In this document: positions 143 to 52,808 of the stretch, in pieces
Numbering within the stretch: the stretch's first letter is position 1
Layout of the letters: each line of letters begins with the position of its first letter
NCBI GenBank assembly: GCA_022600195.1
Contig: JAHZKX010000065.1
Coordinates: forward strand, 1-64,000
Direction of reading: 5' to 3'
DNA length: 64,000 nucleotides
Source: Planctomycetota bacterium
Lineage (GTDB): Bacteria > Planctomycetota > Planctomycetia > Planctomycetales > Planctomycetaceae
Notes under the pieces: model-generated
What the model was told of the DNA's origin: nothing
Database searches by the model: none
The model's input: only the letters and a program-made list of their open reading frames with translations
Position numbers and translations under genes: made by a program

Positions 143-370
143 CGAGTTCCCCTGTCAGCATGGCATGAATTGGCAGAATGCCCTTGTTTTATAGGAGTAT
201 GCGCAAATTACGTGCCAAAGCGAGGGACGTCATCTGGGAAATGCGGGTTAAAGGCTTATTGGAATGTGAGAATCATTACATGTGCGCGCCCTGTGCGCAC
301 AACGGGAGCAAAACAGACTATATTAGACCATTACCCAAAGAGTACTGTCTGTAACTCAGCGCATAAAAAA

Positions 371-411
371 AGCCAGAAACAGCAACAAATAAAGTGTTTC
401 TGGGCTCTTTT
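371..411 (-). terminator. Hairpin terminator beyond the truncated tRNA-Met copy
   Basis: An 11-bp inverted repeat (AGCCAGAAACA at 371-381 and its complement with one bulge at 395-406) has an A-run on one side and CTTTTT on the other, so it can work in both directions. It lies just beyond the 3' end of the partial tRNA copy at 418-464. That is where the original tRNA-Met terminator would sit if the island to the right inserted into the tRNA gene. Confidence 0.6.
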
Positions 412-417
412 TGAAGG

Positions 418-464
418 TAGCGGTGGAGGGATTCGAACCCCCGACACGCGGATTATGATTCCGC
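418..464 (-). pseudogene. Truncated tRNA-Met copy (3' part only), candidate attachment site
   Basis: These 47 bases are identical to 2677-2723, the 3' part of the intact tRNA-Met: anticodon loop, 3' side of the anticodon stem, variable region, T arm, acceptor 3' strand and discriminator A. Identity stops abruptly at 464, inside the 5' side of the anticodon stem, and at 418, the tRNA 3' end. No D arm or 5' acceptor strand follows, so it cannot fold as a tRNA. An exact copy that ends at the tRNA 3' terminus is typical of an att site left by tyrosine-recombinase integration. A CAGCAT/ATGCTG inverted repeat (464-469 and 485-490) sits at the inner junction. Confidence 0.85.
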
Positions 465-561
465 AGCATGATGATCGAAATATGATGCTGTTGAGTAGTG
501 GTTGTGATTAAAGGAAACTGATCTAGTCCCTTCAGTTGCATCCAGATTTTATTTCACTGTG

Positions 562-1023
562 CTATTTCTTAGCAGAAATCTCAAAATCCAGAGTCACTTC
601 AGGAGCTTTGACTGTAGCCATCGTCCGATTCCTCTCCTGGTGGGGATTCGTATATTTCTCTGGAAGTAGTTGAACAGCCCCCACATCAGCTGCGTCCTTC
701 CCTTCTGGTATCGGACTCCCGTCAGGTAATCCCATCATGGAAAAAGTTACAATGTATTCTCCCGATTCAATTCCTGGTTTGTTACTCCTGTGGAGCAAAG
801 TATATTTACCCTCACTGTCAGTAACACCATAACCTCCGGTCCCTGACGTTTGATCTCCTGGATTAAAGATTACGGAAATATTGGCTTTTGGTTTTCCATC
901 GAGCTTAACGGTCCCCGTAACAGGCACTAGCTCATCTGGAACTTCTACGGAATTACCACCACAGCCAGTCAACATCCCAATGACACAAACGACAATTATA
1001 AAGTGTCTGTTAGATTTCAACAT
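562..1023 (-). CDS. Small lipoprotein with carboxypeptidase-regulatory-like fold
   Basis: A 153-residue protein. Its N-terminus has a hydrophobic stretch ending in the lipobox LTGC at about residue 21, so export and lipid anchoring are expected. The rest has the pattern PVTGTVKLDGKP followed by SGTGGYGVTDSEGKYTL, seen in planctomycete carboxypeptidase-regulatory-like (transthyretin-like) lipoproteins. Such proteins very often lie directly downstream of DUF1559 genes, as here. The gene is 172 bp downstream of the DUF1559 gene on the same strand, with a hairpin between them that may reduce read-through. The molecular role is unknown; a structural partner of the pseudopilin at the cell surface is an inference. 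Both genes lie inside the tRNA-bracketed segment. Confidence 0.85.
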   Translation of the reverse strand: MLKSNRHFIIVVCVIGMLTGCGGNSVEVPDELVPVTGTVKLDGKPKANISVIFNPGDQTSGTGGYGVTDSEGKYTLLHRSNKPGIESGEYIVTFSMMGLPDGSPIPEGKDAADVGAVQLLPEKYTNPHQERNRTMATVKAPEVTLDFEISAKK

Positions 1024-1138
1024 TCAACTCTCTTTCAAATAAGTTAATGGCAGGGGTTCCCAACATACCTGCTAACCGCAGCTTATCAGAACTCTACTGG
1101 CACCTGAATCAACACTGATTGATGTGCAGAATAATATT

Positions 1139-1173
1139 GACTCCTTCGCCTCGGATACCCGGGCGAAGGAGTC
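1139..1173 (-). terminator. Perfect 12-bp hairpin between DUF1559 and lipoprotein genes
   Basis: GACTCCTTCGCC (1139-1150) and its exact complement (1162-1173) form a strong stem with an 11-nt loop. It starts 23 bp beyond the stop codon of the DUF1559 gene. On the minus strand it is followed by AATATTATT rather than a clean U-run, so it may act as a partial terminator or 3' stabiliser that sets pilin-like transcript above lipoprotein transcript. Confidence 0.65.
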
Positions 1174-1195
1174 ATACTACTGAACGTTTTAAGAA

Positions 1196-2164
1196 TTAAA
1201 ATTCGCCGACTGTATTGCCATCGGAAATATTGGCCAGATTGATGCGAGTCGTTGTATCAATGTTTTCGCTGATAAACCTGACAGCACCATCTGCCAAAAG
1301 CACATGCATGCCACCGATATGAGTACTGCCGGGGTCTCCCCATTCCCCTAGTCGACCTGCTCGAAACTGAGCCATGGGAGGAGATCTCCAAGTACAGCAA
1401 CGATATTCATTGATGCCACGTGATGACTTGAAGTTTGTTCCCAGACCAACATGAGACGCTGCTGCCCAAGACTGGCATTCACCATCGTCCACGTCCAATG
1501 TGGTTTCTGCGACAGCGACGGTGTTACTAGTGCCATCTGTAATATCGCGGATCTTACAATTGGAATTGATCCCGAACATAGTACGGGTTGTTTTACCCGC
1601 AAGGGTCCATAAGTTACAGGCACCGGTATCGTGCGCATTAGTGACATTGAAGCCGTAGCTGGTGCGGGCAGAGTTGGCGACACCTGTTCCATAAGCCGTG
1701 CTGGCAGGAGCATAGACTGCGCCTCCATTGTCTGAGGGGCAAATCAGGGTTTGAATGATGTTTGTTCCCAAGGCAGCATTTCCACTGGCGATGGCACCCC
1801 CACCTGCCAGTGTGCCACTAACGTCGTTTCGTGAGCCTGTTGCTGCGCTGAAATTATACTGATTGTATATATTTGCCTGATCCATAAACGGCAAGAGGTA
1901 CAACCACCCTGTATGGTTTGTGATTGTAGTTCCTGTGATTGTGCATGTTCCAGGATTCGAAGTCGCATAGGGAAACACACGATGGGTATCGTGATAATTA
2001 TGTAGGGCCAGGCCGACCTGCTTCAGATTGTTTTTACAGGTTGATCTGCGTGCTGCTTCTCGTGCCTGCTGAACCGCCGGCAAAAGTAGCGCAATTAGTA
2101 TTGCTATGATGGCTATAACCACCAGCAATTCAATAAGTGTGAATCCACGTTTTCTGATTTTCAT
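1196..2164 (-). CDS. DUF1559 protein with type IV pilin-like N-terminus
   Basis: A 322-residue protein that starts MKIRKRGFTLIELLVVIAI, a class III prepilin signal (G before FTLIE, Glu at +5) followed by one hydrophobic helix. The DUF1559 body follows: QQAREAARRSTCKNNLKQ, then a C-terminal GGMHVLLADGAVRFI segment, the H-x-DG motif that closes the family. The length is usual for the family. DUF1559 proteins are greatly expanded in Planctomycetes and are thought to be processed by prepilin peptidase and assembled at the surface, but their function is unknown. The start is fixed by the signal motif; upstream there is only a weak purine run. A 26-bp tandem repeat lies about 80-130 bp upstream of the start codon. 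The gene sits inside the tRNA-Met-bracketed segment with its lipoprotein partner. Confidence 0.92.
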   Translation of the reverse strand: MKIRKRGFTLIELLVVIAIIAILIALLLPAVQQAREAARRSTCKNNLKQVGLALHNYHDTHRVFPYATSNPGTCTITGTTITNHTGWLYLLPFMDQANIYNQYNFSAATGSRNDVSGTLAGGGAIASGNAALGTNIIQTLICPSDNGGAVYAPASTAYGTGVANSARTSYGFNVTNAHDTGACNLWTLAGKTTRTMFGINSNCKIRDITDGTSNTVAVAETTLDVDDGECQSWAAASHVGLGTNFKSSRGINEYRCCTWRSPPMAQFRAGRLGEWGDPGSTHIGGMHVLLADGAVRFISENIDTTTRINLANISDGNTVGEF

Positions 2165-2243
2165 CGTGTTGGCTCCTGTTCATGAATATAATTAAAAAAT
2201 GAAATGGCGCAATCTGCACGTATAAGGGTTTGTAGGAGGTAAT

Positions 2244-2295
2244 AGGTAAAGTTTTATTAGGCAGGAATTAGGTAAGGTTTTATTAGGCAGGAATT
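2244..2295. repeat. 26-bp tandem repeat upstream of DUF1559 gene
   Basis: Two head-to-tail copies of a 26-bp unit (2244-2269 and 2270-2295) differ at one base, A against G at the seventh position. A third, decayed partial copy runs from 2296 to about 2310. The repeat lies in the leader or promoter region of the DUF1559 gene on the minus strand. Copy number could change by slippage and alter expression. The remaining 2165-2676 sequence is AT-rich and I see no gene in it. Confidence 0.85.
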
Positions 2296-2410
2296 AAGTA
2301 AGGGTTTGTAATTACATTATCCAAGTTTAGAAATACAATTACAAGGTTATTTTGATTAAAAACAGAAGGGCACGTCATGTTTGTTTTGGTATGTTTTCCT
2401 ATGAATTAAG

Positions 2411-2457
2411 TAGCGGTGGACGCATTCGAACCTCCCTGCACGCAGGTTTTGATTTCG
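2411..2457 (-). pseudogene. Decayed second copy of the tRNA-Met 3' part
   Basis: The plus-strand sequence begins TAGCGGTGGA, as in the intact tRNA-Met complement. It then continues with ATTCGAACC, CACGC and TTTTGATTTCG at matching spacing, allowing several substitutions and one inserted base. It therefore aligns with the same 3' segment as the exact copy at 418-464. The T-loop consensus is kept but the anticodon stem is lost. It lies 220 bp from the intact tRNA. An older integration at the same site, or a decayed internal att site, would explain it. Confidence 0.6.
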
Positions 2458-2608
2458 TATTCTGAAAACCTAAATGTGTTAATAGAGAATGAAGAGCAGC
2501 AAGAAGAATATGAGGTTTACACTCTCGTTTACACAAGAAATTGGCTTTTGCTGTCCTGAGGTGTCTTTGCCTGTCACACAGCTGGAACCGGAACCGGTAA
2601 AAGAAGAA

Positions 2609-2643
2609 ACGCCTAAACCCATCAATGTTGAGGATTTAGGCGT
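2609..2643 (-). terminator. Terminator hairpin downstream of intact tRNA-Met
   Basis: ACGCCTAAA (2609-2617) pairs with TTTAGGCGT (2635-2643); flanking bases extend the stem by two pairs. On the minus strand the stem is followed by TTCTTCTT. It lies about 34 bp beyond the tRNA 3' end and is the likely tRNA terminator. It differs in sequence from the hairpin next to the truncated copy at 371-411. Confidence 0.6.
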
Positions 2644-2676
2644 CGTTTGTCTTGATGTGTCTTCTTATGACACGAG

Positions 2677-2750
2677 TAGCGGTGGAGGGATTCGAACCCC
2701 CGACACGCGGATTATGATTCCGCTGCTCTAACCGACTGAGCTACACCGCC
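2677..2750 (-). tRNA. tRNA-Met (CAT anticodon)
   Basis: A full 74-nt cloverleaf reads on the minus strand from 2750 to 2677. The acceptor stem GGCGGTG pairs with CACCGCT (a G-U pair at position 1-72), followed by discriminator A. The D arm is GCTC/GAGC, the anticodon stem GCGGA/TCCGC has loop ATCATAA, and the T arm contains TTCGAAT. The anticodon CAT is at 2716-2714 on the minus strand. CCA is not encoded. The absence of a C-A mismatch at 1-72 argues against the initiator; an elongator Met tRNA is most likely, though a lysidine-modified Ile tRNA cannot be excluded by eye. Its 3' part is duplicated at 418-464 and, decayed, at 2411-2457. Confidence 0.95.
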
Positions 2751-52472: not shown

Positions 52473-52808
52473 TTATTCATCTGAGATGAACGTCATCCAT
52501 CGAGGCAAATAGGAATGAATAGTAAAGATTTTACACGTATCCCAAAGTCCACACAGGCATGTTCCGATGATTATGCTAGGGTAGATAAAGTAATTAGTAG
52601 ACAACCCCCAGATTAGATAGAGGGGTCCCCAAATAACTCCAACAATGATCATCGAGATCAAGTATCTGCTCATAACCGTGTCGAACAGTACAACGGCAAT
52701 CGTGATGACAACACGAATCGGTAGTAATACCCACTTGAAAGCTGTTGTCAGTAGATTGGATTGTTTTGTTTTGCTGGAATTTCCATTTTTAATTTCAGTC
52801 AATTCCAC
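52473..52808 (-). CDS. Small uncharacterised membrane protein
   Basis: A 111-residue protein with three hydrophobic helices at about 25-45, 50-72 and 76-95. Its N-terminus is polar (MELTEIKNGNSSKTKQSN). There is no family I recognise. It is AT-richer than the neighbouring genes and lies in a gene-poor patch with the broken gene at 52984-53466, so recent acquisition is possible. Confidence 0.5.
   Translation of the reverse strand: MELTEIKNGNSSKTKQSNLLTTAFKWVLLPIRVVITIAVVLFDTVMSRYLISMIIVGVIWGPLYLIWGLSTNYFIYPSIIIGTCLCGLWDTCKIFTIHSYLPRWMTFISDE

Follow-up and report, generated by a model that had tools for sequence, protein, structure and literature searches.

The stretch of DNA analysed here (the window) is 64,000 nucleotides long, corresponds to positions 1-64,000 of contig C7 (88,632 bp) in a planctomycete genome of 6.58 Mb in 84 contigs (G000), and holds near its left end an intact tRNA-Met gene together with a displaced copy of its 3' part and, between the two, a DUF1559 gene paired with a lipoprotein-like one. 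The interval from position 417 to the tRNA is probably what is left of genomic islands that stood in tandem at the tRNA-Met 3' half, and is similar to cis-mobilizable elements (CIMEs) in having attachment ends and no working integrase. The genus is taken as Gimesia, the nearest named relatives of the window PepT protein (named by NCBIfam) being uncultured Gimesia, one of them at 94%, and the locus was compared across a genus set of 17 genomes, composed of G000 and the relatives G001-G016.

The interval is delimited by an exact 48-bp direct repeat of the tRNA-Met 3' part (417-464 and 2676-2723), no other exact direct repeat in the window reaching 30 bp; an earlier, sequence-only reading, which had described it as 47 bp long, was thus right about its existence. 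Extended to 417-467 and 2676-2726, the two copies match at 98% over 51 nt, the first 48 being exact. That reading had the identity ending in the anticodon stem and exactly at the tRNA 3' end; on a manual reading of the tRNA it starts with the first base of that stem and extends one base beyond the 3' end. The intact gene (anticodon CAT, minus strand; 2676-2750 by ARAGORN, 2677-2750 by Rfam) is attL-like and the outer displaced copy (417-467, minus strand) attR-like, and an intact tRNA accompanied by a displaced 3' fragment in the same orientation is the arrangement of a tRNA-targeted island. The segment between was said to contain only the DUF1559 and lipoprotein genes; both are there, but so are a third tRNA copy and an integrase remnant. 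The former, the degenerate inner copy (2411-2457, minus strand), is 81% identical, lies 266 bp from the tRNA, and is adjoined by a decayed element flank (2379-2410) that is 79% identical to 2645-2686, the likeness starting at 2379.

The integrase remnant (2513-2728, plus strand, its last codons within the tRNA) is the C-terminus of a tyrosine integrase and corresponds to residues 390-461 of the 461-aa integrase of G008, termed type A here, with 87.5% identity over 72 aa and 92% identity of the DNA over 2515-2677. The earlier statement that the segment has no integrase is accordingly correct for an intact gene, which is absent between the repeats, but overlooks these last 72 residues. In both G008 and G003 a full-length tyrosine integrase lies against the tRNA, its reading frame ending inside the tRNA; the two proteins are 54% identical to each other, and that of G008 matches PF00589 with an E value of 2.5e-23. 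Attachment of the tyrosine-integrase type at the tRNA 3' half, which the sequence-only reading had proposed, is therefore borne out, since the same tRNA is occupied by different segments in relatives, two of which carry an intact integrase with a tail like that in the window.

Next to the inner copy, at 2458-2536, is an A-type attachment arm with paired GTTTACAC repeats, recognised by motif alignment and by 72% identity to the G001 arm over 78 nt. BLAST finds a similar arm after the displaced core in G000 (inner copy), G001, G006, G008, G011 and G014, to which the arm alignment added a second G006 arm and a G007 arm, both chosen by position and having part of the motif. The GTTTACAC-4 nt-GTTTACAC pair is exact in G000, G001 and G008 and altered or incomplete in the remaining five alignment rows, and it also occurs in the 3' portion of the G008 integrase gene. 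The window sequences matching the arm (2459-2536) and the integrase tail (from 2515) overlap at the GTTTACAC motif, so that the junction of arm and tail, which forms a 219-bp scar, has the appearance of a deletion from one such motif to another. The element end at the outer copy is of another kind, a "B" arm (465-508) that resembles G003 and G016; its local alignment score was reached in 0 of 2000 letter shuffles for G003 and 1 for G016, and in 540 for G005, which amounts to no support for the last.

The same tRNA was sought in all 17 genomes of the genus set and 16 match something, G013 with another tRNA only, while G012 yields nothing; the gene order on the 5' side of the tRNA (sialidase-like, PepT, S41 protease) is present in 13 genomes, in each of the 13 loci at which this side was clustered. 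A displaced tRNA-Met 3' copy occurs on the same contig, some 2-17 kb downstream of the tRNA and with varying cargo between, in ten of the 17 (G000, G001, G003, G005, G006, G007, G008, G011, G014 and G015), and in G016 two displaced copies lie on contigs without the tRNA. An intact tyrosine integrase stands against the tRNA in two of these ten, G003 and G008, and in none of the other eight. The tRNA-Met locus is hence an integration hotspot in Gimesia. Among the inserts, that of G008 (about 5.6 kb) has the integrase and a Rep_trans match below cut-off, and that of G003 (16.7 kb) the integrase and two DUF1559-like open reading frames (ORFs) between displaced copies. Pfam, run on selected insert ORFs, and clustering give a DUF4145 protein in G011, pentapeptide and nucleotidyltransferase proteins in G005, a WGR protein and unknowns in G006, BlaI/BlaR1-like genes in G007 and, by cluster membership, in G014, and a beta-lactamase-family protein (PF00144) in G015; PADLOC matches to island cargo are weak. 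G001 has a 2.2-kb segment without an intact integrase (L065:14346-16006), with a methyltransferase and an Mrr-type nuclease with a weak TIR match, possibly a defence pair.

The three tRNA copies in tandem could also stem from tRNA duplication or from illegitimate recombination, without any integrase, and the copy at 2379-2457 does take in flanking sequence; the core boundaries are, however, closely similar in relatives that have different DNA between them, two with an integrase alongside, and this origin is highly improbable. An assembly artefact is less credible still. The first position of the contig does fall within a repeated insertion sequence, of which an end cut by the contig end (1-250, minus strand; 91% to C84:526-772) lies outside the island and whose C84 copy encodes a transposase N-terminus (PF13701, E 5.5e-56); against this, the hairpin flank T0 described below, the core, the cargo, the arm and the integrase tail each have a match in relatives whose genomes were assembled independently, several into a single contig. 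Contigs C7 and C84 both start with this insertion sequence, each near a DUF1559 gene. Comparison of contig C51 (which has backbone gene c4 and ends at 52769) with the left end of C7 gave no overlap linking them.

On the chromosome side of the outer copy is the hairpin flank T0 (351-416, minus strand), read as the original terminator of the tRNA, about 30 nt of which are 93% identical to sequence flanking the displaced copies of G005, G006, G007 and G014. Its hairpin has a folding energy of -17.5 kcal/mol (z -2.9), and that of a second hairpin at 2600-2675, within the integrase-tail side of the tRNA, is -28.2 kcal/mol (z -6.6), none of 200 shuffles being as good in either case; a consensus terminator scan listed neither the T0 hairpin nor the one at 2600-2675. 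We infer that T0 was the original terminator and that the 2600-2675 hairpin is element-borne and may serve as the present one.

As a course of events, a type-A-like integrase would have recombined circular elements into the anticodon region of tRNA-Met, each of which would have supplied a 3' half and a terminator to make the tRNA whole again; the interior of one element would then have been lost through recombination between paired GTTTACAC arm repeats, leaving the 219-bp scar, and the DUF1559-lipoprotein pair would have remained as cargo. With 48 exact bp in the outer copy against 81% identity in the inner one, it may be that the inner scar came first and that the whole interval then arrived as a single unit, an integrase acting in trans or having been lost afterwards. 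Of the features that define a CIME, both attL and attR appear to be kept, judging from the 48-bp cores and the arms, and the integration genes are lost; as to an origin from an integrative and conjugative or an integrative mobilizable element, no transfer gene was recognised among the window ORFs scanned, and G008 offers the weak Rep_trans match already mentioned. On these sequence features the segment would work like a CIME or a decayed tRNA island.

Several observations weigh against a remnant of tandem islands. The ages of the copies misfit simple serial insertion, in which the outer copy should be the oldest; a recent move of the whole unit, conversion of the outer copy or uneven decay could each explain this. 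The two ends of the DUF1559 segment are different arm types, so the segment is composite. The chromosome side is missing, cut off by the contig end and the insertion sequence; the stretches matching T0 are short, and beyond the T0 copy of G005 lies one more weak tRNA match, of 26 nt. No displaced copy was found within about 16 kb in G002, G004, G009 and G010, part of G010 being masked, and since the G003 copy is 16.7 kb away, one in G004 could lie beyond the stretch examined. An uninterrupted tRNA-T0 site was likewise not found; the comparison across relatives that the sequence-only reading had called for shows varying occupancy in the genus and no empty site. A wider search for such a site in 120 genomes (6 Gimesia and 114 others of the family, with 7 candidates scored in each) gave matches to flank and tRNA joined as one query in 90, none spanning the flank and the whole tRNA; the widest new row (G034) covered 17 flank bases. 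In another genus of the family, G065 has a 98% tRNA-Met 3' copy 13.6 kb from the tRNA (C4:239225-252915).

The exact outer copy beside a decayed inner one also agrees with a different reading, in which the 2.26-kb interval is a minimal element that can still move, all of it at once, through a visiting type-A integrase acting in trans; so does the A-type arm, kept in six of the eight loci without an intact integrase (G000, G001, G006, G007 by position, G011 and G014). Yet of the 12 PF00589 loci in G000, a single one matches the type-A integrase at E <= 1e-4, and that at 25% identity; the ends of the interval are of different types; and its tRNA-side end may be kept for transcription termination and not for mobility. 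We regard this reading as possible but on the whole doubtful. Scans of genomic and viral contig collections confirmed no type-A integrase, with near records possibly left out. A broader version, which seems unlikely, makes the Gimesia tRNA-Met locus an integron-like cassette dock where small units of 1-3 genes are exchanged by a visiting type-A integrase, the DUF1559 pair being a recent whole-unit arrival; dock units would keep just the tRNA-derived core, the paired-repeat arm and the integrase-tail/terminator end, and the integrase would come and go on fuller elements.

The cargo of the presumed tandem-island remnant consists of a pseudopilin-like DUF1559 gene (1196-2164, minus strand; 322 aa), with a PF07596 match (E 3.1e-55), the PF07963 N-methylation motif, and prepilin and H-X9-DG domains, and a gene for a 153-aa protein (562-1023, minus strand), lipoprotein-like by eye, that has no Pfam or NCBIfam match and is matched at 74-78% in seven relatives. 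Upstream of the DUF1559 start codon are two 26-bp tandem copies (2237-2288), 88% alike, without a counterpart in the other fetched loci. Orthologues of the DUF1559 protein at 86-88% occur in six relatives (G001, G005, G006, G007, G010 and G014), where the orthologous pair sits within a DUF1559 array beside hisF (identified by NCBIfam TIGR00735 for the G001 gene and by clustering in the other genomes), and ARAGORN found no tRNA in these six stretches. G016 also has a pair beside hisF, at 78% and 77%; its DUF1559 protein groups with a neighbouring paralogue (tree support 99/97) and is therefore not counted as an orthologue. In G000 itself a contig end interrupts hisF (C56:143799-144008), the far flank is at the start of contig C42, and no further good hisF piece was found; with the region so broken, the pair may have been either moved or copied. 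DUF1559 pairs 10-15 kb from the same tRNA in relatives were considered as a source of the window pair and rejected, being at most about 52% identical, with the orthologues at hisF. On a recent transfer from the lineage of G005 and G007, the DUF1559 tree gives weak evidence and the lipoprotein tree lacks resolution, so that the gene trees are too weak to show a transfer of the pair.

The most far-reaching proposal of the sequence-only reading was that DUF1559-lipoprotein pairs are general small cassettes that enter tRNA 3' ends with an integrase in trans. The window pair does lie between tRNA copies, as do the two DUF1559-like ORFs in G003, and its distribution is patchy, G003 and G004 grouping with G000 on two backbone proteins (support 86/87) and yet having no match above 57%. 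To set against this, the 54 PF07596 matches in G000 (some being pieces of one gene) were compared with its 62 own tRNAs over some 6 kb on either side or to the contig end (C46:150077 having 3.7 kb on one side), and displaced tRNA fragments, tRNA genes themselves not counted, were found near one of the 54, the window's own, so that DUF1559 loci are not commonly flanked by tRNA 3' repeats and a general spread as tRNA cassettes is not supported. In six relatives, moreover, the orthologous pair is in an array without tRNAs. Genus-wide, the DNA between displaced copies comes to about 63 kb (summed by hand) and has DUF1559-like genes in two of the ten genomes, G000 and G003; given densities of 54 in 6.58 Mb in G000 and of at least 83-86 in each of 12 relatives, roughly one such place is expected by chance (our own arithmetic), and two genomes against about one expected are too few to call enrichment. 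As a general account, cassette spread through tRNAs thus has very little probability, and the pair looks like an occasional island passenger, with no sign that this is the family's route of spread.

In the reverse direction, 3' copies were sought downstream of the 62 tRNA places of G000 (64 listed by Rfam, two below cut-off being omitted), over some 17 kb or as far as the contig reached. Three places had them, on C7, C55 (Lys) and C57 (Met), and at C55 and C57 an integrase adjoins the tRNA; many contigs end early, so that 3' copies can be missed. The C57 fragment is also matched by the tRNA at C1:5-78, and one of the omitted low-scoring tRNAs accounts for a hit at C36:2798. At C55:157171-166402 a tRNA-Lys with an adjoining integrase has an exact 44-bp 3' copy 9.2 kb away. 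A second tRNA-Met (CAT) on C57 (L078:64-13523) has an adjoining integrase and a 21-bp 3' copy 13.4 kb away, possibly an island filling nearly the whole contig. An integrase match also lies about 1 kb from a DUF1559 gene at C31:764-3135 (L162), where ARAGORN detects no tRNA in the first 20 kb.

Known systems offer several points of comparison. CIMEs and their tandem accretion are described as keeping attachment ends, losing integration genes and standing in tandem with decayed neighbours (PMC5704250), and the window segment has the kept ends, the lost integration genes and the tandem layout with a decayed neighbour; it differs in being just 2.2 kb long, in having no transfer gene recognised in the window and in the survival of an integrase tail, and its mobilization would be putative. 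In Dehalococcoides, the integration module is missing from 15 of 31 ssrA-specific islands, which the authors of that study suggest might be CIMEs (PMC3146451). These are likewise tandem islands downstream of one RNA gene and bounded by its 3' direct repeats, although at a tmRNA gene and with serine recombinases, whereas the window has tRNA-Met, a tyrosine integrase and different cargo (PMC3146451); they are the closest parallel among the published systems consulted. In the Islander account, anticodon-centred sites make up one of the two common classes in tRNA genes (2083 of 3919; PMC4383910), a class that the window repeat fits, and a regenerated tRNA with a displaced fragment is shared; Islander filters for an integrase gene, however, so that segments without one go unreported (PMC4383910). 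CALIN arrays hold cargo units served by an integrase encoded elsewhere, and the window segment would resemble them through a putative helper; the same source lists tycheposons among phage satellites (PMC11389934). Among the papers listed, neither titles nor abstract openings mention this locus or the mobility of DUF1559 genes at tRNAs.

These comparisons document an integration hotspot in ten of the 17 genomes of one planctomycete genus, eight of which have no intact integrase at the site and would therefore be passed over by tools that require one, a filter stated for Islander (PMC4383910). For the DUF1559 family, they indicate that the presence of a DUF1559-lipoprotein pair at a tRNA need not mean that such pairs usually travel by way of tRNA sites. 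Given cargo as varied as the methyltransferase and Mrr-type nuclease of G001 and the BlaI/BlaR1-like genes of G007, the locus may merit mining for variable functions.

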